From contig JAMCYS010000105.1 in the NCBI GenBank assembly GCA_023473795.1, positions 1-48,155 on the forward strand: a stretch of DNA of 48,155 bases. Reading direction: 5' to 3'. Shown here piece after piece: positions 1-9,271 of this stretch. The notes below the pieces were generated by a model. That model saw nothing but the letters and a program-made list of their open reading frames with translations. It searched no databases and was not told the origin of the DNA. The position numbers and the translations under genes are program-made. Every line of letters begins with the position of its first letter. Positions within the stretch are counted from its first letter, which is position 1. Source of the DNA: Chloroflexota bacterium (GTDB lineage: Bacteria; Chloroflexota; UBA6077; FW602-bin22; JAMCYS01).

Positions 1-127
1 GTAGCGAAGGGGGCGGCCGCGGCCGCCGTAGCGGCGTAGTTGCCAGCTCGGCGTGGGGATTAGACGGGCGGGCGGGTACGGAGCCCCGCCCCTACCGCCA
101 TACCTGCCAGTTATGCACGGATGTCAA
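1..127 (-). repeat. MITE-like repeat, copy 1 (cut by window edge)
   Basis: These 127 bases are an exact reverse complement of 9021-9147. The copy runs off the left edge of the window, so its other end is not seen. It contains the GTAGGGGCGGGG / CCCGCCCGCC core and a 16-bp perfect palindrome of GGC/GCC triplets at 12-27. It has no reading frame of its own. Its inner end (position 127) lies 10 nt before the -35 box of the promoter at 138-166. It is most likely a non-autonomous mobile element; its identity with the second copy suggests recent duplication. Confidence 0.85.
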
Positions 128-137
128 GAGGCAACCG

Positions 138-166
138 TTGACGGAGGCACGGCCGGCGGCTAGAAT
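138..166 (+). promoter_or_regulatory. Promoter for the C39-like lipoprotein gene
   Basis: TTGACG (138-143), a 17-nt spacer and TAGAAT (161-166) make a good sigma-70-type promoter. The expected transcript start is near 173. The -35 box begins 10 nt after the end of repeat copy 1. Confidence 0.6.
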
Positions 167-183
167 GGGCGTAGTTCACATAT

Positions 184-1578
184 TTGGTTGAGGTGGTCTT
201 GCCCAAGCGAACGAACCGTAGTGCCTTCCTGATGTTCCTGACGGTCGCCTTGTCTCTCCTGGCCCTCTTCGCCGGTTGCGCCAGTATTCCCGGGGGGGTT
301 GACCAGATGGCTAGCGAGTCCCAGACCGCCGGAAGAGAAGCAACCGCCTTACCTACTGGACCTGTATCGCGGGCTCCGTCGCCCACCGCGACGCCGACCG
401 TTGCCGCCGCCCCGGCTGTTGAGGAGCAGCGCGGTGGCCCCATGGTCACCCAGGTGCCGCCCACGCCCCGACCAACGCTTACGGCCACCCCACCGGCAAT
501 ACCCACAGCCATACCACCGGCTGCGCCCGCAAGCAAGCCGGCAGCGAGTCCCGGGGCTGCCCTGCCCAGCGTGGCGCTCGTGCGCGACTTCGCGTCTGAG
601 TTCCGCGAGGGTGATCTCAGTAACCTGAGTTTCGGGGTGGATGGCGCCTTGAATCTGGCCGGCAAGCCCAACGGCGGCTACGTCGCCAGTGGCGAGCTCG
701 TTTCACCGGTGCGGAGTCCGGATTGGGCCTTCACCAACGTCGTTCTCTCCTGGGGCGCGACCTCACCCACGGCCTCCGGCATTACGGTTTCCGCTCGCGC
801 GCGCTCGGCGGGAGAATGGTCCGGCTGGTATGTGATGGGCATCTGGCGGGACGGCAAGGGCAGCAGCGTTCGCGCCCAGGCAGACAGCATGGGCATAGTG
901 GACGTGGACACTCTGGTGCTTTCCCGTCCGGCGGACGCCTATCAATACAGGGTTGCCTTCGAAAGCAAGTACGGCAACGTCTCCCCCAGCCTAGACAGCG
1001 TCAGCGTCGCTCTGGCCGACACCCGCCGTGCTGCCACCAGCTCAGGGTCGGCGCTGCCGGCCGGCTGGCAACGAGAGCTGCCGGTGCCGGTCGAGTCCCA
1101 GGTCCTGCAGGAACCGTCCGTGGCCTGGGAGATCTGCAGTGCTACGTCGCTGACGATGGTCCTGCGCTACTGGGGCGCTCCGGTGACGGTGCCGCAAGTC
1201 TACGCTGGCGTGCGCGATGGCACCACGGGCATCTATGGAAACTGGCCGTTGAACACGGCTTACGCCTCCGAGCTCGGCTTCGACGCCTATGTGGCGCGCG
1301 CCGCCTCGCTCGATTTCGTGCGGGCCCAAATAGCGGCCGGCAGACCGGTGCCGATCAGCCTGAAGTATCAGGCTGGCGAGCTGTCGGGGGCGGCCCTCAA
1401 CTCGACCAGCGGTCACATAGTCGTCGTGCGCGGCTTCACGGCCGACGGCAAGGCCATTCTCAACGATCCCGCTGCCCCCGACCTGGCGAGCGTGCGACGG
1501 GTGGTGTCCGCGGAGCAGCTGGAGAAGGTCTGGCTGCGCTCGGGCGGCATCGCCTATGTGGTCAGCCCCGGCCAGTAG
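184..1578 (+). CDS. Lipoprotein with C39-like cysteine peptidase domain
   Basis: A 464-residue predicted exported lipoprotein. The N-terminus has a hydrophobic stretch ending in a lipobox-like LFAGC, so the mature protein should be lipid-anchored outside the membrane. Residues about 35-130 are a Pro/Ala/Thr-rich linker. About 130-285 looks like a beta-sandwich domain. About 295-460 matches the peptidase C39_2 type (papain-like fold): Cys318 in EICSATSL, His411 in SGHIVVV and Asp428 in LNDPAA form the expected triad. The substrate is unknown; families of this kind act on peptides or cell-wall material. The start is uncertain: TTG 184 is the longest, GTG 193 and ATG 231 are alternatives, and none has a well-spaced ribosome site. 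A promoter lies just upstream; no gene partner is obvious. Confidence 0.8.
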   Translation: MVEVVLPKRTNRSAFLMFLTVALSLLALFAGCASIPGGVDQMASESQTAGREATALPTGPVSRAPSPTATPTVAAAPAVEEQRGGPMVTQVPPTPRPTLTATPPAIPTAIPPAAPASKPAASPGAALPSVALVRDFASEFREGDLSNLSFGVDGALNLAGKPNGGYVASGELVSPVRSPDWAFTNVVLSWGATSPTASGITVSARARSAGEWSGWYVMGIWRDGKGSSVRAQADSMGIVDVDTLVLSRPADAYQYRVAFESKYGNVSPSLDSVSVALADTRRAATSSGSALPAGWQRELPVPVESQVLQEPSVAWEICSATSLTMVLRYWGAPVTVPQVYAGVRDGTTGIYGNWPLNTAYASELGFDAYVARAASLDFVRAQIAAGRPVPISLKYQAGELSGAALNSTSGHIVVVRGFTADGKAILNDPAAPDLASVRRVVSAEQLEKVWLRSGGIAYVVSPGQ

Positions 1579-1690
1579 GCGCCGCCGACGCCTACCGGCG
1601 CGCCACCTTTCCCTCCAAACCGGTATCTTCCCCTGGCCTTTGCGCCCAGCAGTACCCTGCCTACCGCCAGTCCGCTCTCTACTAGGGCAA

Positions 1691-1699
1691 TGATATACT
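1691..1699 (+). promoter_or_regulatory. Extended -10 promoter for the nitroreductase gene
   Basis: TGATATACT is a TGn-extended -10 element (TATACT at 1694-1699) with no good -35. The ribosome site GGGAG at about 1719-1723 and ATG 1732 follow at sensible distances. Confidence 0.45.
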
Positions 1700-1731
1700 A
1701 GTGACGAGAGTCAGCTGGTGGGAGATGAAAG

Positions 1732-2229
1732 ATGGTTCTGGATGCCATATTGGGCCGGCGGAGCATTCGCGACTACGCGAACCGCCCGGTGAGCGAAGAA
1801 CAGGTCAAGACCCTCTTGGAGGCGGCGATGGCTGCGCCGTCGGCGAGCGACCGCCGTCCGTGGCAGTTCATTGTGGTCAGGGACCCCGAATTGAGGCGCG
1901 GTCTGGCCCGCACCCACCAATTCTCGGGGATGGCCGAGAAGGCGCCGGTGGTTTTCGTCGTTTGCGGTGACGAGCAGGCGTCGGCGCACTGGATGGTGGA
2001 CGGCAGCGCCGCCACTGAGAACCTGCTGGTGCAGGCGACCGCGATGGGCCTCGGCGGCTGCTGGGTCGCCATCTTCCCGCGCGAGGAACGAGAGCGCCAC
2101 GTGCGGGAGCTGCTGGGCATTCCGAGCGGCATTCGTGTGTTGTGCCTGGTGCCGCTGGGTTACCCAGCGGCACCCAAACCGCCGCGCACCCGCTACGAGG
2201 AGCGGTGCGTGCACTACGATCGCTACTAA
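1732..2229 (+). CDS. Nitroreductase family protein
   Basis: A 165-residue flavoprotein of the nitroreductase superfamily. The N-terminal RRSIRDY (Arg9, Arg10, Ser11, Arg13) is the FMN phosphate-binding signature, followed by PSASDRRPWQFIVV and the C-terminal GLGGCWVAIF segment that contacts flavin. Such enzymes are FMN-dependent, usually dimeric and cytoplasmic, and reduce nitro compounds, quinones or other acceptors with NAD(P)H; the natural substrate cannot be read from sequence. ATG 1732 has GGGAG about 8 nt upstream. It converges on the alcohol dehydrogenase gene, and the two stop codons overlap (2226-2229). Confidence 0.88.
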   Translation: MVLDAILGRRSIRDYANRPVSEEQVKTLLEAAMAAPSASDRRPWQFIVVRDPELRRGLARTHQFSGMAEKAPVVFVVCGDEQASAHWMVDGSAATENLLVQATAMGLGGCWVAIFPREERERHVRELLGIPSGIRVLCLVPLGYPAAPKPPRTRYEERCVHYDRY

Positions 2230-3224
2230 GGCATCACCAGTGGCTTGATGCCAACCTTGTCGCGCAGGGCGTGGATCGCCTGGAGCGTTTGACCGAGCTC
2301 ATAGTTGGGGCCAAGAATCGGGTCCAGCCGTAGCTTCTCCAGCCAGCGCAGCGCTCGCCCCAGGCTGTAAGGGCGCATGTAAGAGGCCACGATAGTTAGC
2401 TCGCGCGCATAGAGGTCGTACGGCTCGACCTCCATCTTGGCGCCGGGCGGGTTGACGCCCACGAGGACGATCCTGCCGGCTTTGGCGGCCAGCTGGACCG
2501 CCTGCTCCGAGGTGCGCGGGTGACCCACGGCCTCGAAGACTACGTCCGCGCCCAGCCCGTAGGTGGCGTCGCGTACGGCGGCGATAGGATCGACCTGACG
2601 GGGGTCGATCACGACGTCCGCGCCCATCTCCTGGGCCAGCGCGCGCCGCTTGGGGTCTGGCTCGGAGACTACGGTCTTGGCTGCCCCCGAATGCAGCGCC
2701 AACTGCAATAGGGACAGGCCGATGCCGCCCGCGCCGATGATGGCCACGGCATCCCCCGAGCGCATCCTCGCCAGGTCGAGCGCGTGCACGGCGCAGGCGA
2801 CAGGCTCGGCCATCGAGGCCGTCTCGAAGGACATGGTTTCGGGGATCTTCCACAGCAGGCGATCGAGGAGCACGGCGTGCGTGCTGAAAGCCCCCGGGGA
2901 CATCGAGCGGTTGAGGCAGAGGTGCTCCATGCCGTTGCGACAGTACCAGCAGGCGTTGCAGACCATGCCGGGCTCAGTCGCCACCCGGTCGCCGGGCTTA
3001 ACCCGGGTTACCCCGGCGCCAACCTCTTCCACCAGGCCACTGAACTCGTGCCCCAACACGCGCGGTGGCACCGTGAGAGGGAACTTGCCCTCTATGGAGT
3101 GTACGTCCGTGCCGCAGACGGCGCTGGCTTTGACCCGCACCAGGACCTCGTTCGCCCCCAGCGTGGGCTTCGGCTGCTCCTCGACCCGAATGTCCTCGCC
3201 ACCGTACCAGACGGCGCTGCGCAT
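2226..3224 (-). CDS. Zinc-dependent medium-chain alcohol/polyol dehydrogenase
   Basis: A 332-residue MDR-family dehydrogenase. Catalytic zinc ligands are Cys37 (AVCGTD) and His59-Glu60 (LGHE); the structural zinc lobe is Cys89, Cys92, Cys95 and Cys103 in the usual C-x2-C-x2-C-x7-C spacing. A Rossmann GAGGIG motif for NAD(P) follows, then GADVVFEAVG. It resembles sorbitol, threonine or galactitol dehydrogenases; the substrate is not determinable. ATG 3224 was chosen over longer in-frame starts because GGGAGG sits about 8 nt upstream and it matches the family N-terminus. It has its own promoter (3295-3323), 162 nt downstream of the ferredoxin gene. Confidence 0.88.
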   Translation of the reverse strand: MRSAVWYGGEDIRVEEQPKPTLGANEVLVRVKASAVCGTDVHSIEGKFPLTVPPRVLGHEFSGLVEEVGAGVTRVKPGDRVATEPGMVCNACWYCRNGMEHLCLNRSMSPGAFSTHAVLLDRLLWKIPETMSFETASMAEPVACAVHALDLARMRSGDAVAIIGAGGIGLSLLQLALHSGAAKTVVSEPDPKRRALAQEMGADVVIDPRQVDPIAAVRDATYGLGADVVFEAVGHPRTSEQAVQLAAKAGRIVLVGVNPPGAKMEVEPYDLYARELTIVASYMRPYSLGRALRWLEKLRLDPILGPNYELGQTLQAIHALRDKVGIKPLVMP

Positions 3225-3294
3225 AGCCTTGTCCTCCCTGACGTTTTCACCTGGCGCGTGACCGATCATCCGGTCGTCGGCGCTCAGCGTGCCT

Positions 3295-3323
3295 ATTCTA
3301 AAGCTGCGACCGAGGTGGAGCAA
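3295..3323 (-). promoter_or_regulatory. Promoter for the alcohol dehydrogenase gene
   Basis: Read on the minus strand: TTGCTC (3323-3318), a 17-nt spacer and TAGAAT (3300-3295). The leader would be about 65 nt. Confidence 0.45.
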
Positions 3324-3386
3324 CGTGGACGCGGACCAAACCAGTGGCCGGCCCGCGCCGGGAGAGGTGCGGTCAGATTGTTGGGG

Positions 3387-3587
3387 TTAGACCAATTGGA
3401 TGGCGCGTGCCGGGCAATCGGCTACGCACTTGGAGCAGCCGTGACAGCGGCCGGGGTCCGTGGCCGGTACCTCGTGCGGCTCCATTTGGATGATCGCCTT
3501 CGTCGGGCAGACCTTGCGCACGCGACAGCGCCCGTCGACACACTCCTGCGGCCGGCAGCGCTGCGGATCTACTATGGCTCTCGGCAC
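3387..3587 (-). CDS. Small two-cluster ferredoxin with unusual first cysteine motif
   Basis: A 66-residue protein with two iron-sulfur motifs. The second is canonical: Cys48, Cys51, Cys54, Cys58-Pro. The first is widened: Cys11, Cys16, Cys21, Cys27-Pro (C-x4-C-x4-C-x5-CP) rather than C-x2-C-x2-C-x3-CP. The C-x4-C opening recalls the ferredoxin domain of ABCE1-type proteins. It should carry one or two 4Fe-4S clusters and shuttle electrons in the cytoplasm; the partner is unknown. GTG 3587 has AGGGAGG about 7 nt upstream, and its G is also the last base of the upstream gene's TAG stop, so translation is probably coupled. Confidence 0.85.
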   Translation of the reverse strand: MPRAIVDPQRCRPQECVDGRCRVRKVCPTKAIIQMEPHEVPATDPGRCHGCSKCVADCPARAIQLV

Positions 3588-3745
3588 TAGGTTTCCTCCC
3601 TCTGGCGGCGCAGGTTGGCTATCTCCTCTTCCAGCTCCTCCAGCCGCAGCATCATGGCCATTGGCACGGAGTGCTTGGGCAGACGTTCCTGTAGGTCGGA
3701 GCGCTCGCGCTCCAACTGCGCCAAGCGAGTATCTTGTTCCGTCAT
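3587..3745 (-). CDS. 52-residue coiled-coil protein of unknown function
   Basis: A small protein, ATG 3745 to TAG. The first 20 residues are charged and helical with Leu at heptad-like spacing, then comes a break LPKHSVPMAM, then a second helix rich in Leu/Glu ending in Arg/Glu. This gives a helix-turn-helix coiled-coil hairpin with no cysteines, signal or membrane segment. It lies 7 nt after the 77-residue gene and overlaps the ferredoxin start by one base. Similar tiny proteins may be adaptors or stabilisers of the ferredoxin; that is inference. I do not recognise a named family. Confidence 0.72.
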   Translation of the reverse strand: MTEQDTRLAQLERERSDLQERLPKHSVPMAMMLRLEELEEEIANLRRQREET

Positions 3746-3752
3746 TGTCTTC

Positions 3753-3986
3753 TTACTTACCCGCAGCCAACCGCAACTTCAGGGCGGCTATTTGCGCGGC
3801 CAGGCGCTGCTCCTCGCCGGCAAACTGCTCCTGCAGCGTCTTGATGCTCCAGGAGTCGATGTGCAGGTTCGTCTGGCCCAGGGTCGCCCTGCGTTCGTCG
3901 TGCAAGTCCCGCAGTGCCACCTCTGCGCGTCTCAGCTCCTCCCGCAGCTCCTCCCGGTTGAAACCCTGCCCCAGAATCTCCGTCAT
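3753..3986 (-). CDS. 77-residue coiled-coil protein of unknown function
   Basis: A small highly charged helical protein. Residues about 10-33 (NREELREEL...RRA) and about 52-75 form two predicted amphipathic helices around a central polar stretch near GQTNLHIDSWS. There is no signal, cysteine or catalytic motif. ATG 3986 is supported by GGGAGG about 6 nt upstream; an upstream in-frame start exists but has no ribosome site. It sits 58 nt after osmC and 7 nt before the 52-residue gene, all on one strand, so it is probably cotranscribed with both. Its function is unknown. Confidence 0.7.
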   Translation of the reverse strand: MTEILGQGFNREELREELRRAEVALRDLHDERRATLGQTNLHIDSWSIKTLQEQFAGEEQRLAAQIAALKLRLAAGK

Positions 3987-4044
3987 CGCCCGCCTCCCGC
4001 CAAAGAGTTCAGTTGCCGGTGCCGGACAGAACCAGCCCAAAGGT

Positions 4045-4530
4045 CTAGTCGGCCGAAAGTGCCTGAGCCTGGGAAATGGCTTCACCGCTCGTCGGGTCGT
4101 CGTCTTCCTCGGTAACGGAGTAGCGGTGCTCTACCGTGGCGGCTTTGCCTAGCATAGCGCTCGCCGGGCAATACTTGGTGGCCGAGAGGCGAACTGCCTT
4201 GCGCACGGCGTCCTCGCTCAGGTGGCGCCCGCGCACGATGTGCTCGACGACGATGGTTGTGAACACCTTGGGATGCACGGACGTTCGCTCGGCCTCAATG
4301 GCGACCTCGTAGCTGGTGACATCCTGGCGCATCTTCTTCAAGATAGAGATCACGTCCATGCCGGTGCAGCCGCCCAACCCCGCGAGCAGTAGTTCCATGG
4401 GCCGCGCGCCCCGGTTCTGCCCGCCGACATCGGCGTCGGCATCCATTTCGACCGCATGCCGGCTGCCAGTCTGGCCCTCAAAGGCCATTTCGCCCAGCCA
4501 CTTCACCCTGCTGTTCATCCGCGACGCCAC
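4045..4530 (-). CDS. OsmC/YhfA-like family protein
   Basis: A 161-residue OsmC-superfamily protein. The hallmark is GGQNRGARPMELLLAGLGGC (first conserved Cys) followed by MDVISILKKMRQ, and a second Cys in TKYCPASAML. Classical OsmC/Ohr members use the two cysteines to reduce organic hydroperoxides with thiol recycling; the YhfA-like branch that this most resembles has no settled activity. The chosen start is GTG 4530 with GGAGAGGAG upstream; ATG 4518 is an alternative giving a protein closer to family length. A strong promoter lies upstream. It heads the probable operon with two coiled-coil proteins and a ferredoxin, which fits a redox role. Confidence 0.87.
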   Translation of the reverse strand: MASRMNSRVKWLGEMAFEGQTGSRHAVEMDADADVGGQNRGARPMELLLAGLGGCTGMDVISILKKMRQDVTSYEVAIEAERTSVHPKVFTTIVVEHIVRGRHLSEDAVRKAVRLSATKYCPASAMLGKAATVEHRYSVTEEDDDPTSGEAISQAQALSAD

Positions 4531-4590
4531 TCGTCGCTCCTCTCCGGGAGTAACCGGCAATCGCTGCCGCATACCCCTCCCCCGTATGTT

Positions 4591-4619
4591 ATTGTAGGCC
4601 GGTCCTGAGCGTTGGTCAA
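4591..4619 (-). promoter_or_regulatory. Promoter for the osmC-ferredoxin gene group
   Basis: On the minus strand: TTGACC (4619-4614), exactly 17 nt, TACAAT (4596-4591). This is near consensus and 60 nt before the start of the OsmC gene. Confidence 0.65.
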
Positions 4620-4730
4620 GCCCGAGCCCCCTTGGTTGGAGGACCACTTGTTCCTGCCGCTTGCCGGTGCTAAGATAGATACCGACCTCGCCGACCGTCA
4701 ATTCAATTATACCGCTCCGCCGGGGAGTTT

Positions 4731-5315
4731 TTGGATGATCTGGTTGTGAAGAAGCGCATTGTCGTCGTAACTGACGGCGATCAGAGCGCCTGGCGTGCCG
4801 CCCGCCGAGCGGTCGTGGAGCTGGGCTTGGGGTTTGTGGACATAACCGAGGGCAATCCCACTCGGGCCACCCTGGCCGAAGTAGAGGAGGCGCTCGTTGC
4901 CTCGCCTTACGAGGTGGTGGTGGTGCTGGCCGACGACGGCGGGACGGCGGGAATTGGCCCTGGCGAGCGACTGATCGAAGCGCTGGCCAGATCGCCGGCA
5001 GTCGAGATTGTCGCCGCGGTGGCGGTTGCCTCCTGGGCGCATCAGGAATCCGAGGTGCGGGTGGACGAGTCAGTCACGGCCGAGGGCTCTGTAGTGGCGA
5101 CCGCCGTTGATAAGGAAGGGCGGCCCGTTCCGGGCAAGCGTCTGTCAGGCGATACAGTGGGCGTGCTGCGGCGGTTATGCGTGCCCATCGTGGGCGTGGG
5201 CGACATCGGCGAGGACGGGCACGCCTGTGGGGTGCCGGCGCTGCGCAAAGCCCTGGCCGAGGCTCTGCGTTTGGCCGCACCCACGGCGATTGAGGTTGAG
5301 GAGCCTATGCAGTAG
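4731..5315 (+). CDS. SpoVAE-like protein (stage V sporulation protein AE, N-terminal type)
   Basis: A 194-residue soluble protein without signal or membrane segments. It carries the pattern I know from SpoVAEa of spore formers: KRIVVVTDGD near the start, GNP, SPYEVVVVLADDGG with GPGER, VAAVAVAS, VDESVT, AVDKEG, then LSGDTVGVLRRL and PIVGVGDIG. In Bacillus this protein sits in the spoVA operon tied to dipicolinate movement; no other sporulation gene is visible here, so the role is open. The start is unclear: TTG 4731 is close to GGGGAG (3 nt), while GTG 4746 matches the usual N-terminus. Its end overlaps the convergent DUF123 gene by 11 nt. Confidence 0.72.
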   Translation: MDDLVVKKRIVVVTDGDQSAWRAARRAVVELGLGFVDITEGNPTRATLAEVEEALVASPYEVVVVLADDGGTAGIGPGERLIEALARSPAVEIVAAVAVASWAHQESEVRVDESVTAEGSVVATAVDKEGRPVPGKRLSGDTVGVLRRLCVPIVGVGDIGEDGHACGVPALRKALAEALRLAAPTAIEVEEPMQ

Positions 5316-5826
5316 GCGGCCAGGGCCGCAGCCCCAGCGCCGCTAGCTGCTTGTCGGGCGGACCCGGCAGCCATACCAGGTGCCCCGGGCAGCGGCAATC
5401 CGAGGAGCCGAAGCGAGGCACTGCCAAACTGCTGCCCGGCTGGCGAGCCAGCGCCGCCGCCAGCGCGCATTCCTGCCTCTCGCGGCCCACCAGCGCCCAG
5501 GCCCGCACATCCGCCGCTAGCGGGCGCAGGTAATCGACGTGCCAGTGGGCCTTGCCGCCCCCCGCCAGGTGTCGTGCCAAACGGGCGCGCAGCCCGCCCA
5601 GGGCGCTGCCCAAGTAGGCGTAGTGGCCGGCTGGGAACGAGAATCGTCCCAACCGGCCGACCTGGACCGCAGCGGGTTCGGCTAGCCACAGCCACAGAGC
5701 GTAGCTACCGGCCGCGCGGGCGGCGGCTACTTGAGGGCAGAGTAGGCCGTCGGCTTGAGGATGCGATTGGTGACGAGGCTGACGATCGGACCGTCTGCCT
5801 CCGACTCGGCCTTGGCTTTGATCCAC
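5305..5826 (-). CDS. DUF123 / GIY-YIG-type family protein, start uncertain
   Basis: The DUF123 domain is clear from about 5710 to the stop: GSYALWLWLAE, VGRLGRFSFPAGHYAYLGSA, RLARHL, HWHVDYLRP, CALAAAL and FGSSDCRCPGHLVWLPGPP. The family is related to GIY-YIG nucleases, but its own activity is not established. No ATG, GTG or TTG lies in frame between the upstream NIPSNAP stop (5727) and the domain. The nearest in-frame starts are GTG 5826 and GTG 5853, both inside the NIPSNAP gene. Either the gene starts there with a roughly 100-nt overlap, uses a rare start codon, or has lost its start. The coordinates take GTG 5826. Confidence 0.7.
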   Translation of the reverse strand: MDQSQGRVGGRRSDRQPRHQSHPQADGLLCPQVAAARAAGSYALWLWLAEPAAVQVGRLGRFSFPAGHYAYLGSALGGLRARLARHLAGGGKAHWHVDYLRPLAADVRAWALVGRERQECALAAALARQPGSSLAVPRFGSSDCRCPGHLVWLPGPPDKQLAALGLRPWPPTA

Positions 5827-6050
5827 TCCGGATCCTTGAAGAACGCGTCCCACAGGCGCTCGCGCGCCTCCATGCTCTCGAAAGCCAACATGTAGACCAG
5901 GCGGTTATTCTGGCCAATCGCCTCTTCCCAGAAGCCGACTTGCTGGAAACCGTACTTCTGCCAGATGCGCAGGGTATGCTCCTGGAAGCGCTTGTGGAGT
6001 AGCGGCAGTTTCAGCGCCGGGCAATCGTAGATGCGCAGCTCGTAGATCAC
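5727..6050 (-). CDS. NIPSNAP family protein
   Basis: A 107-residue protein with the NIPSNAP/Dabb-like pattern: MIYELRIYDC at the start, a middle VGFWEEAIGQNNRLVYMLAFES, then RLWDAFFKDPEW and a terminal ILKPTAYS. These are small ferredoxin-fold-like (alpha-beta barrel) proteins of ill-defined role, sometimes acting on or binding small hydrophobic molecules. GTG 6050 is supported by GAGGAG about 9 nt upstream and lies 2 nt after the ndk stop, so it is cotranscribed and probably coupled with ndk. Confidence 0.85.
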   Translation of the reverse strand: MIYELRIYDCPALKLPLLHKRFQEHTLRIWQKYGFQQVGFWEEAIGQNNRLVYMLAFESMEARERLWDAFFKDPEWIKAKAESEADGPIVSLVTNRILKPTAYSALK

Positions 6051-6052
6051 TT

Positions 6053-6511
6053 CTAAGACTCCTCTTCAAGAATCCACTTCTCGACGTCGCGGCGGTACTC
6101 GACCAGCTCGTCGGGACGGAAGAAGTTGGCTATCTCCTCGGCAGCCGTCTGCGGGCCGTCGGAGGCGTGAATCAGGTTGCGCAGGCCCGTCACCCCGTAG
6201 TCGCCACGGATCGTGCCCGGGGCTGCTTCCGCCGGGCGCGTGGCCCCAACCATTGCCCGCACCATCTTGATCACGTCCGGGCCTTCAATGACTGTGACGA
6301 CCACAGGGCCGGAAGTGATGTAGCTCACCAGTCCGTCGTAGAAGAACTTGCCCTGGTGCACGGCGTAGTGGCGCTCGGCCAGGTCACGGTCGATCCGCAT
6401 CAACTTCAGCGCCGCCAGGCGCAGACCGCGGCGCTCGAAGCGACCCAGGATCGAGGCCACCAAGCCTCGCTGCACGCCGTCGGGCTTGACGATGACTAGG
6501 GTTCTCTCCAC
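6053..6511 (-). CDS. ndk: Nucleoside diphosphate kinase
   Basis: A 152-residue protein of standard Ndk length. It transfers the gamma phosphate from ATP to other NDPs through a phosphohistidine. The active-site His115 lies in RNLIHASDGP, and the N-terminal ERTLVIVKPDGVQRGL, the FYDGLVSYITSGPVV segment and ATRPAEAAPGTIRGDY are all family signatures. GTG 6511 has AGGAG upstream. It follows the TPR gene by 9 nt and precedes the NIPSNAP gene by 2 nt in a minus-strand run. Confidence 0.97.
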   Translation of the reverse strand: MERTLVIVKPDGVQRGLVASILGRFERRGLRLAALKLMRIDRDLAERHYAVHQGKFFYDGLVSYITSGPVVVTVIEGPDVIKMVRAMVGATRPAEAAPGTIRGDYGVTGLRNLIHASDGPQTAAEEIANFFRPDELVEYRRDVEKWILEEES

Positions 6512-6520
6512 ACTTGTCTC

Positions 6521-7219
6521 CTATTGCAGTCTGGCCGCCACGGTGCCGGCCGGGTCCATTTCTTGCGCCCTGGCCAGCAGCTGCTCGGCAGCCACCTGAT
6601 CTCCTTCTTGCCGGCGCACGCGCGCCAGGATAAGCAGGGCCTGCAGGCAGTCGGGCGCCTCGGCGAGGATGGCCTCGCACGCGCCCGCGGCCTCTTCCAC
6701 CTCCCCGGCCAGCCAGAGAGACTGGACAAAGGCCACCCAGACGTCGAGACGGCGAGGGTTGGCGGCGAGAACGGCGCGGAACTCCTCGGCCGCCCACTGG
6801 TATAGCCCCTGCGCGAGGTAGATGCGGCCGAGCATGGCCCGCGTTGGCTTCGCGGCCGAACGGCGGTCCACGACCATGTGCTGCAGGTCCGCAAGGATCT
6901 CCGGGTTGGCGGGCGTCAGTTCGCGCGCGCAGCTGAGTCGAGCAACGGCTTCTTGTTCCTGCTCCTGGTCGCTAAGCAACAAACCTAGCGACCAGTGAGC
7001 CAGCACGCTCTCGGGATCGGCGCTCAGTACCCGGCGCAGCAGGTCCTCGGCGGCGTCCAGCAGGCCCATCTCGCGATACGATTCGGCCAGTAGGGTGGTG
7101 GCCTCGACGTGCTTGGGACACTTGCCAAGGGCGGCACGGCAAGCCTGCACCGCCGCCAGGTAATCGGAGGCCAGGATGGCGGTGCGTGCCTGTTCGAGCT
7201 CCGTCTCTGCTGGGTCCAA
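6521..7219 (-). CDS. TPR repeat protein
   Basis: A 232-residue all-helical protein made of tetratricopeptide repeats (about five to six). Typical repeat endings such as ALGKCPKHVEA, VLSADPESVLAHWSLG, ELTPANPEIL, LAANPRRLDVW and EILAEAPDCLQA recur roughly every 34 residues. No signal, membrane segment or catalytic domain is seen, so it is probably a cytoplasmic scaffold. TTG 7219 has GGGAG about 7 nt upstream. It leads the run with ndk, NIPSNAP and DUF123; the partner protein is unknown. Confidence 0.85.
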   Translation of the reverse strand: MDPAETELEQARTAILASDYLAAVQACRAALGKCPKHVEATTLLAESYREMGLLDAAEDLLRRVLSADPESVLAHWSLGLLLSDQEQEQEAVARLSCARELTPANPEILADLQHMVVDRRSAAKPTRAMLGRIYLAQGLYQWAAEEFRAVLAANPRRLDVWVAFVQSLWLAGEVEEAAGACEAILAEAPDCLQALLILARVRRQEGDQVAAEQLLARAQEMDPAGTVAARLQ

Positions 7220-7284
7220 CTCAGCGCTCCCTTTGCCCGGAAGTCACTGCCGGCGCAAGAGTAAGTTGGCTCATTCGCGGCCAG

Positions 7285-7314
7285 ATCATAGCATGCCGGC
7301 GCTTGCCACGTCTA
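7285..7314 (-). promoter_or_regulatory. Possible promoter for the TPR-ndk run
   Basis: On the minus strand: TAGACG (7314-7309), 18 nt, TATGAT (7290-7285). It is weak at -35. The 271-nt gap 7220-7490 otherwise holds only this and the small hairpin at 7445-7460. Confidence 0.35.
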
Positions 7315-7444
7315 GCGCCGTCTGCCTCCCACGATTGACCGACTGCAATCCAAGGAGCCGCACCCACGTCTGACTGAGCGGGACCTCCCGGATCGAAAAC
7401 CGAGGGGACCGTGCACTTAAACGGAATCGGGGGTTCTTAGGCAA

Positions 7445-7460
7445 ATCGGGGAAGCCCGAT
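7445..7460 (-). terminator. Short hairpin after the DUF1638 gene, possible terminator
   Basis: ATCGGG, loop CTTC, CCCGAT, then TTG on the minus strand. It is a compact 6-bp stem with a stable-type tetraloop 30 nt after the DUF1638 stop, but with almost no U-run. Confidence 0.35.
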
Positions 7461-7490
7461 GTGGTAGAAGGCGGCTGAGTCTGGGCCGTT

Positions 7491-8237
7491 TCAGTCTGAG
7501 GCTAGGCGCAGAATCTCGTCTTCCACGTACGAAGGAGCGGTCTTGCCTCCCGGCGGTACGATCAGGAACTCCCGGGGGTCCCAGTTGCCCTCTACCAGAT
7601 TGCGCGCCAAGCGCAGGTCACCCCGGCATTCGTCGTAGCGCCACTTGTACTGCTGGGCCACTTGCTTGGCTTTCTCTTTGATTTCCGCCATGTCGATCAG
7701 GCCCATTTCGACGAAGAGCGCCCGGCTGTAGTTCTTCTGCCAGCTGTGGAGCATTTCCATAAGATAGCCGGCGTTCTCCGGCCCGTACTTCTCCACGTAC
7801 TCCGCGTGAATTCGCTCGCGGGCAGCCTCTCCATCTACGCTTGTACGTTCCTTGTCTACTCCCTCGCGCTCGATCCAGCCCGGGGTGTAGTAGTAAGTGC
7901 CGGGCGTTTCCCAGAAGGTGCGGTTGTAGGCCTCGCGTGAACCCAGCAGCACGGTGATGCAGTCGTGGCCTCTGGGTATGACCAGTGGCGTGTCCCTGGC
8001 CTCGAGAAACGCGGTGCCGTTGCTGCAAAGGGCGTAACCTAAGAGTAGGTAATCGTAGCCCGCGCCCACGTTGTCATCGATGCGCTTCTGCACCTCTCGC
8101 CGCAGCTTGTCGGGGTCGTTGTGCAGGCTGCGGTGCAAGAAATCGACGTCGATGAGGTGGGGAGAATAGGCGGCGCAGACGCTCAGCTCTCGGAAAAGCA
8201 CGTTGCAGGCGATGATCTTGAACCGCTTGGGCTCCAT
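7491..8237 (-). CDS. DUF1638 domain protein
   Basis: A 248-residue protein matching DUF1638: FKIIACNVLFREL with Cys11, a central YDYLLLGYALCSNGTAFLEA (Cys71), and LVIPRGHDCITVLLGSREAY (His91, Asp92, Cys93). The conserved Cys/His set suggests metal or cofactor binding. In methanogens and some bacteria such genes lie near corrinoid methyltransferases; none is present here. It is probably cytoplasmic. ATG 8237 is the natural start, about 70 nt after a good promoter. Its biochemical function is not established and I cannot infer it from the neighbours (a VOC gene upstream on the same strand, a TPR gene downstream). Confidence 0.82.
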   Translation of the reverse strand: MEPKRFKIIACNVLFRELSVCAAYSPHLIDVDFLHRSLHNDPDKLRREVQKRIDDNVGAGYDYLLLGYALCSNGTAFLEARDTPLVIPRGHDCITVLLGSREAYNRTFWETPGTYYYTPGWIEREGVDKERTSVDGEAARERIHAEYVEKYGPENAGYLMEMLHSWQKNYSRALFVEMGLIDMAEIKEKAKQVAQQYKWRYDECRGDLRLARNLVEGNWDPREFLIVPPGGKTAPSYVEDEILRLASD

Positions 8238-8316
8238 TCCCCGGCCTTTCTAAACAACACCGGCCGAAGGGCTAGCGCCCCAGCGGCCGGCGACGATGAC
8301 TGCCTCTTCCAGGCAA

Positions 8317-8345
8317 ACTATACCATTTGGCCGGGGGGAGGTCAA
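8317..8345 (-). promoter_or_regulatory. Promoter for the DUF1638 gene
   Basis: On the minus strand: TTGACC (8345-8340), 17 nt, TATAGT (8322-8317). The leader would be about 70 nt. Confidence 0.6.
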
Positions 8346-8439
8346 GGCGAAACCGAGACCCGTCTCCTGCCCTCCGGCAGCCACAGTCGGTTGGCGGGAC
8401 GGCAGGCACGCCGCCGCGGCCAGGCGAACTGGCGAGTGG

Positions 8440-8946
8440 CTAGGGTTCGAACGGGTACCAGCGCTCCGGCGGATGACGCTGCTCGGGAATCTCTATGAAC
8501 TCGTAGATCGTGCCCACGTCGTCCGCGGTGTCGAGATAGGCGTAGCCACCATCGCCCTTGGCGCCGAAACCACGTCCGCTCTGGATCACCCTGAGTCCCG
8601 CTGCTTCCGCATCTTTGACGGCAGCCGCCAGGTTCGGCACAAAGATGCCCAGATGCTGCACGCCCTGGCCGGCAATCTTGGCGAAGTCGTTGTAGAGGTT
8701 CTCTCCGTCCAGATGCTGAATGAGTTCGAACATCAGCTCGCCCACGTTGGCCAGGGCAACGCGCATGTGGTAAGTCGCCGGTTGGCCGCGGTAGGTCGTG
8801 TCCTTCACCAACGGCGGGCCGTAGGTATAGATCTTCCAGGGACCGACGCCGAACTGAGTCCAGTAAGCCTCCATGGCCTTGTCCAGGTCCTTGACAACGA
8901 AGCCAATCTGGTTGATCTGCTTGAGCCGGTACTTGGGTTCGACCAC
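8440..8946 (-). CDS. VOC (glyoxalase/bleomycin resistance) family protein
   Basis: A 168-residue vicinal-oxygen-chelate protein with two beta-alpha-beta-beta-beta modules. Likely metal ligands are Gln13 (NQIGFVV), Glu74 (LMFELI), His98 (GVQHLGIFV) and Glu149 (TIYEFIE), a Q/E/H/E set like that of some glyoxalases and methylmalonyl-CoA epimerases. The exact substrate is unknown. GTG 8946 was chosen over the longer frame because AAGGAGG lies 6 nt upstream and homologues begin near KYRLKQINQIG. Its promoter sits directly beside repeat copy 2. Confidence 0.85.
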   Translation of the reverse strand: MVEPKYRLKQINQIGFVVKDLDKAMEAYWTQFGVGPWKIYTYGPPLVKDTTYRGQPATYHMRVALANVGELMFELIQHLDGENLYNDFAKIAGQGVQHLGIFVPNLAAAVKDAEAAGLRVIQSGRGFGAKGDGGYAYLDTADDVGTIYEFIEIPEQRHPPERWYPFEP

Positions 8947-8982
8947 TGTCGTCCTCCTTGGCGCTGGGCTAGGGTTCGCTGC

Positions 8983-9011
8983 ATGATACATCCGGACCGC
9001 CGGCCGGTCAA
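8983..9011 (-). promoter_or_regulatory. Promoter for the VOC gene
   Basis: On the minus strand: TTGACC (9011-9006), exactly 17 nt, TATCAT (8988-8983). The -35 box lies 9 nt from the end of repeat copy 2, mirroring the arrangement at copy 1. Confidence 0.65.
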
Positions 9012-9020
9012 ACGCCACCC

Positions 9021-9213
9021 TTGACATCCGTGCATAACTGGCAGGTATGGCGGTAGGGGCGGGGCTCCGTACCCGCCCGCCCGTCTAATCCCCACGCCGA
9101 GCTGGCAACTACGCCGCTACGGCGGCCGCGGCCGCCCCCTTCGCTACGCTTCGGGGACATGGCTGGCGGGCGGGCAGAGACGCCCGCCCCTACGGGATTA
9201 TGCACGAATGCCA
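9021..9213 (+). mobile_element. MITE-like repeat, copy 2 (complete)
   Basis: An element of about 190 bp without coding capacity. Imperfect terminal inverted repeats are CATCCGTGCATAA (9025-9037) and, reversed, CATTCGTGCATAA (9210-9198). Each is followed inward by GTAGGGGCGGG and a CCCGCCCGCC block, so each half can also fold. A 16-bp perfect GC palindrome sits at 9121-9136. Bases 9021-9147 are identical to the reverse complement of 1-127. The right boundary (about 9213) is inferred from the inverted repeat. It fills most of the 410-nt gap 8947-9356, between two divergent promoters. The GTAGGGG...CCCGCCC core resembles repeats common in Chloroflexota genomes. Confidence 0.75.
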
Positions 9214-9241
9214 GCCACCTGTGCCCGCAATAGCGCCGTCT

Positions 9242-9271
9242 TTGACCGGAAGGGCCGCCGATGCCTACAAT
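9242..9271 (+). promoter_or_regulatory. Promoter for the methyltransferase gene
   Basis: TTGACC (9242-9247), 18 nt, TACAAT (9266-9271). It lies 28 nt beyond the right end of repeat copy 2; the leader would be about 80 nt. Confidence 0.55.

Follow-up and report, generated by a model that had tools for sequence, protein, structure and literature searches.

A miniature transposable element of a Chloroflexota genome and its probable insertion, by an IS4-like transposase, directly upstream of sigma70-type promoters

Why do the terminal repeats of two copies of one short element lie at offsets of 11 and 10 from the -35 boxes of two different promoters? The question arises in a stretch of 48,155 nucleotides from a Chloroflexota bacterium (JAMCYS010000105.1, forward strand), referred to here as the window, which is the entire contig C52 of a 4.44-Mb draft genome (G000, assembly GCA_023473795.1) in 170 contigs. 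Judging from DNA and protein comparisons, the repeat is very probably a miniature, non-autonomous form of a DDE transposon of the IS4-like (Tn5-related) kind; the transposase would insert the element ends directly upstream of sigma70-type -35 boxes. Elements with like ends in other Chloroflexota, an intact insertion sequence (IS) among them, obey the same rule at 10 of 14 sites.

The element has the properties of a miniature inverted-repeat transposable element (MITE): it is 194 bp long, lacks coding capacity, ends in 16-bp inverted repeats (TGRCATYCGTGCATAA), is flanked by target duplications and is present in the genome as 40 pieces. Its right end reads TTGACATCC. The element is largely self-complementary, forming a long hairpin (DNA fold z -4.06). 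One of the two window copies is complete; the other comprises only 127 bp, its left part lost because the contig begins inside it. The initial annotation had placed both copies next to promoters with 17-nt spacers, and re-reading of the coordinates located all four features as described:

1..127, + strand: MITE copy 1, right 127 bp, with the right terminal repeat at 111-126
128..135, + strand: target duplication GAGGCAAC beside copy 1; the identical 8 bp lie at the left end of piece L037 on contig C139, the pairing itself having been made by this match
138..166, + strand: promoter TTGACG-17-TAGAAT of a C39-like peptidase lipoprotein gene (TTGACG 138-143, TAGAAT 161-166; score 15.95, offset 11)
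8983..9011, - strand: promoter TTGACC-17-TATCAT of a VOC/glyoxalase-like gene (TTGACC 9011-9006, TATCAT 8988-8983; score 16.06, offset 10)
9014..9019, - strand: target duplication GGTGGC of copy 2, promoter side
9020..9213, - strand: MITE copy 2, complete, 194 bp, its left terminal repeat at 9198-9213 and its right one at 9022-9037
9214..9219, - strand: target duplication GGTGGC of copy 2, far side

A DNA search of the whole genome gave 42 matches, but two of them are inverted matches inside copies that the count already includes. Eighteen of the remaining 40 pieces sit at contig ends, and 14 of these pair through their target duplications into seven insertions; the 33 insertion loci thus comprise 22 away from contig ends, seven pairs and four single ends. 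The terminal-repeat pattern identified 61 ends (those of L023, L025, L028, L037, L044 and L046 were assigned left or right by hand, L044 having only one recognisable end), and the DNA outward from each was scored for a sigma70-like promoter at offsets 0-40. A score of at least 8.6 is reached at 33 of the 61 ends, with the -35 box beginning at offset 8-13 in 32 of them and at 28 in one. The 32 offsets have a mode of 10-11: offset 8 occurs once, 10 and 11 twelve times each, 12 four times and 13 three times. All except one of these 32 ends score at least 12 and so exceed the value below which 99% of random stretches of the genome fall (11.05, taking the best of offsets 0-40); the spacer is 17 in 27 of the 32.

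Counted by locus, an outward promoter at offset 8-13 is present at 29 of the 33 insertions (20/22 away from contig ends, 7/7 pairs and 2/4 single ends). Among the visible ends, the promoter adjoins the right end only at 18 loci, the left only at eight and both at three; L035, L044 and L045, where the right end is not visible, are all counted as left-only. For background, 266.8 kb of the same genome were scored using a crude gene caller: such a promoter lies on either side of 523 of 19,796 positions upstream of genes (2.6%), 0.9% of other intergenic positions and 0.7% of coding positions. Against the 2.6%, the 20 of 22 loci correspond to a P of about 6e-30, in a background where neighbouring positions are not independent. 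The shared geometry is thus far more than chance. The initial annotation had regarded it as not due to simple duplication of a locus and had suggested that the element may target promoters, a suggestion against which it set random distances between other copies and promoters. Run genome-wide, the distances are not random, and the pattern recurs among related elements from other genomes, which strongly supports the suggestion. A co-directional gene follows 29 of the 32 promoter ends at a median of 78 bp from the -10 box (range -2 to 954, crude caller). Nine of the 32 promoters overlap a called open reading frame (ORF), which may reflect starts set too far upstream by the caller.

The target duplications fix the order of events. 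Exact duplications of at least 6 bp flank 17 of the 21 copies in which both ends are recognised, a frequency to be compared with 0.6% under random pairing; they are 6-10 bp long, mostly 7-8, and all 17 copies have the promoter. Two further copies with the promoter, L032 and L033, show near-duplications by eye. L015 and L022a have neither duplication nor promoter and are the only two misfits among the 22 copies away from contig ends; both would fit later rearrangement. The seven contig-end pairs were built by matching duplications, and their duplications are therefore not independent evidence. The promoter-side duplication lies between the element and the -35 box, which means that the promoters are older than the insertions and that the promoter core was spared. 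Measured at 27 ends, the gap between duplication and -35 box is 2 bp in 14 cases, 3 bp in nine, 4 bp in one and 5 bp in two; at the remaining end the two overlap by 1 bp.

The same promoter test was applied to 14 insertion sites in six other genomes. A promoter was found at ten of them, always at offset 10-11: G019 3/3, G009 2/3, G038 2/2, G005 1/1, G339 2/4 and G215 0/1 (one end only). L123 (G011, with a two-mismatch terminal repeat) and a Deinococcus relative with unclear ends were left out of scoring. The elements in these genomes differ in length and, as far as seen, have little in common beyond the terminal repeats; that unlike elements keep the same spacing argues against a regulatory sequence within the MITE as its cause. 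In G009 two different 201-bp elements with like ends lie 12 bp apart beside one promoter (L187:1501-1914). A distant IS4-like element on Thermus plasmids (L178-L185) shows, in four of six copies, a TTGAC at a distance of 9-16 nt from one of its ends, mostly without a proper -10 box; a TTGAC preference is possibly older than the promoter preference. The present claim covers the Chloroflexota elements and is not extended to the Thermus relatives.

The candidate mobilising transposase was traced through the terminal repeat, which is present in 3 of the 29 genomes examined from the class and, with the pattern TGASATCCGTGCATAA, in 5 of the 400 from the phylum, G000 itself being counted. Two elements of 1.0 kb in G019 have 20 nt, TGACATCCGTGCATAACTGG, in common with the right end of the MITE and contain a reading frame for a transposase; the frame that is intact (L098) has lost the catalytic E through an internal deletion. 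Relatives of the G019 protein are encoded in 9 of 400 genomes. One of them, G339 (Ktedonospora formicarum, Chloroflexota), encodes an intact transposase, 52% identical to the G019 protein, in an IS with four nearly identical 1,485-bp copies, ends CTGACAACCACTCATAA / CTGACATCCCATCATAA and duplications of 6-7 bp (read by eye). This transposase, a single ORF of 481 residues from the first start, carries the IS4-family motif Y(2)R(3)E(6)K as Y359-R362-E366-K373. With D126 and D215 the catalytic spacing is D-89-D-151-E, compared with D(60-110)D(100-150)E in the family (as given in the accessible part of PMC2266710), the D-E distance being one above that range.

Its library matches are IS4-, IS701-, IS1634-, IS1380- and ISH3-type models, DDE_Tnp_1 and Tn5 entries. 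The best NCBIfam match, transpos_IS4_3, is below its cut-off (E 3e-18, 65.8 bits vs 160), and the Pfam DDE_Tnp_1 match scores 24.3 bits (cut-off 23). In the PDB it matches Tn5 transposase or the Tn5 inhibitor, in every case weakly. No Mutator-group match was found in these libraries, in which the presence of ISLre2 and ISKra4 models was not checked; IS256, ISLre2 and ISKra4 models are not among the 11 NCBIfam models matched. A structure model from the one sequence had a mean pLDDT of 39.5, too poor to use. A contig-collection scan with the MITE left end gave no match, and one with the G339 transposase returned only the four Ktedonospora formicarum copies. Within G000, the 1.7-kb insertion nested in one MITE copy (L015:1277-3011) has ends of its own, encodes a 528-aa ORF and is bordered by a duplication of 4-5 bp. 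It was considered as the autonomous partner and rejected as a separate nested element; we take it to be an IS, presumably IS1182-like.

Several points weigh against promoter targeting by an IS4-like transposase. No transposase partner was found in G000 itself, where contig C55 has one weak C-terminal transposase match and no terminal repeat was found; the partner is inferred to have been lost, unassembled or too divergent. The promoters are predictions made with an E. coli-like matrix, and the threshold of 8.6 was chosen after a gap in the scores had been seen; with 11.05 in its place, 31 of the 61 ends still qualify at offset 8-13. Four of the 33 loci lack the geometry, two of which show only one end. 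Elsewhere the four misses are L118 and L117 (G339), L121 (G215) and one tandem copy in L187 (G009): one G339 copy is without a promoter, another carries TTGACA at offset 11 but lacks a good -10 box, and in the G009 tandem pair one copy follows the rule while the other has no promoter at the set distance. Among the Thermus relatives (31% identity, different ends) only one of six copies reaches 8.6 at offset 8-13.

The genes next to the two window copies are unrelated, as the initial annotation had recognised:

184..1578, + strand: ORF with a Peptidase_C39_2 domain, downstream of copy 1
8440..9027, - strand: longest ORF with a Glyoxalase_4 domain

The latter ORF overlaps its promoter and therefore its real start probably lies further downstream. 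Copy 2 is flanked by two divergent promoters, that of the glyoxalase-like gene 10 nt off and another 28 nt off (window 9214-9271); this second promoter, TTGACC-18-TACAAT, is close to a methyltransferase ORF start.

The geometry might be produced by DNA recognition alone. The transposase would then recognise TTGACA, which resembles its own right end (TTGACAT...), and promoters would be hit since intergenic TTGACA is often a promoter. The MITE right end does read TTGACAT-like (TTGACATCC), the -35 box is TTGAC in 22 of the 32 promoters, TTGAC lies near four of the six Thermus copies, in most cases with no proper -10 box, and in G009 one copy of the tandem pair would have landed beside the end of the other or beside a TTGAC there. 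However, the -10 box is enriched even when an intergenic TTGAC is given: a -10 score of at least 4 is seen at 17 of 23 ends with exact TTGAC at offset 8-14 vs 28 of 87 intergenic and 8 of 287 coding TTGAC sites. The remaining 10 of the 32 promoters have no TTGAC (TTGTCC twice, TTGCTC, TGGACT, TTGAGC, TGGACG, TTGAGT, TTGCCG, TTGTAT and GTGCGC) and yet have the -10 box in place, a count to be read knowing that promoter scoring itself favours sites having a -10. Nor is TTGAC clearly commoner at insertion-site promoters than at ordinary intergenic promoters that also score at least 12 (22/31 vs 29/55). Insertion-site promoters do prefer a C at the third base ahead of the -35 box, in most cases the border of the duplication (23/31 vs 19/55, P 6e-4). 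From the -10 enrichment and the ten sites without TTGAC it follows that the two-part promoter, and not the -35 hexamer alone, predicts the site best. Mimicry between TTGACA and TTGACAT accounts for part of the pattern and not for the dependence on the -10 box; as an explanation for the whole it is unlikely.

Selection after random insertion, retaining copies at the right spacing since these activate, insulate or regulate the promoter, is far less probable still. A long hairpin could block read-through or bind a regulator, and the co-directional genes start close to the -10 box by the crude caller's reckoning, both of which would suit such a role. Against it stand the same spacing of apparently dissimilar elements in five other genomes, the fact that either element end may adjoin the promoter and the unrelatedness of the two genes in the window. 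The upstream activator, insulator or regulator-binding site that the initial annotation had offered as alternatives is not needed to explain the geometry, though such effects may follow from the insertions. Promoter-carrying MITEs such as the Correia elements are known (PMC10969869, in the part available), and the present element might likewise carry its promoter with it; for the outward promoters described here this is refuted, for their sequences vary by site and lie outside the element, and outside the target duplication at 26 of 27 measured ends.

At the level of sequence it is shown that insertions repeatedly lie a few bases upstream of predicted -35 boxes, that the promoters are left intact and that they may adjoin either end of the element; larger elements encoding the transposase or its remnant obey the same rule. 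Two routes to such a site can be proposed: i) the transposase would find a promoter occupied or marked by RNA polymerase holoenzyme, which it would touch at sigma region 4 or at the alpha C-terminal domain; or ii) it would read the two-part promoter DNA itself. The cuts, which precede the -35 box by about 2-3 and 9-11 bp, coincide with the positions of sigma region 4 and the alpha C-terminal domains. Recruitment by the transcription machinery has likewise been proposed for TnGBS. Landing there spares both coding and core promoter sequence and would therefore be of low cost to element and host. A bolder proposal, on which we are nearly evenly balanced and lean slightly to the negative, is that an IS4-like (Tn5-type) lineage independently evolved tethering to the sigma70 RNA polymerase holoenzyme or its promoter complex and so forms a bacterial parallel to Ty3 that does not belong to the Mutator superfamily, in which case the MITE copies would mark active promoters.

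If targeting is a property of this second catalytic family, the trait would have arisen more than once, and comparison between the families would help identify the feature of promoter or polymerase that the transposase recognises. As natural marks, element copies may also point out promoters in uncultured Chloroflexota; their duplications hint at how the pieces of a fragmented genome connect. The matches found here (C52:1-C139:1; C145-C81; C155-C86; C124-C143; C68-C160; C70-C166; C43-C138) suggest contig ends joined across a MITE copy, including the start of the window to C139.

Among known systems, the closest in behaviour are TnGBS/ISLre2 (p-MULT 3) and the ISKra4 group (p-MULT 4) of the Mutator superfamily, which insert at a fixed distance, 13-17 bp, upstream of sigmaA promoters. 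PMC3942029 terms this specificity unique and, drawing a parallel to Ty3, attributes it to an interaction with the initiation complex of the polymerase. The present element shares with them fixed-distance insertion upstream of sigmaA/sigma70-type promoters and, with ISKra4 members, nearly symmetric terminal repeats that go with promoters on either side; it differs in belonging to another transposase superfamily, not Mutator-type, and in having the -35 box at 8-13 from the repeat (mode 10-11). Integration upstream of a transcribed gene, placed by the transcription machinery, is also a feature of yeast Ty3 (as cited in PMC3942029) and Ty1; these are eukaryotic retrotransposons working with RNA polymerase III, and their tethering is shown, whereas here it is inferred. 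Correia and other promoter-bearing MITEs, as presented in the available part of PMC10969869, are likewise short palindromic elements close upstream of genes, but they carry promoters, whereas this MITE lands beside existing ones. PMC9208149 reports that ISs in general frequently occupy promoter regions at under 100 bp from a gene, with no fixed spacing given in the portion available.

In catalytic type the element resembles the IS10 and IS50 subgroups of the IS4 family as set out in the accessible sections of PMC2266710: a single ORF encodes a transposase of the DDE type, in which the Y(2)R(3)E(6)K motif goes with the D-89-D-151-E spacing, and the ends begin 5'-CT. Family duplications are about one helix turn, 8-13 bp by subgroup; here they are 6-10 bp, mostly 7-8, for the MITE and 6-7 bp in G339. 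The accessible text of that review describes spectacular target specificity in some IS4 elements and does not contain the word 'promoter', and a literature search, with subscription journals mostly outside its reach, found no IS4-type promoter-targeting element. Promoter targeting is thus already known for Mutator-type transposases, and the IS4-like case would add a different catalytic family at another spacing.

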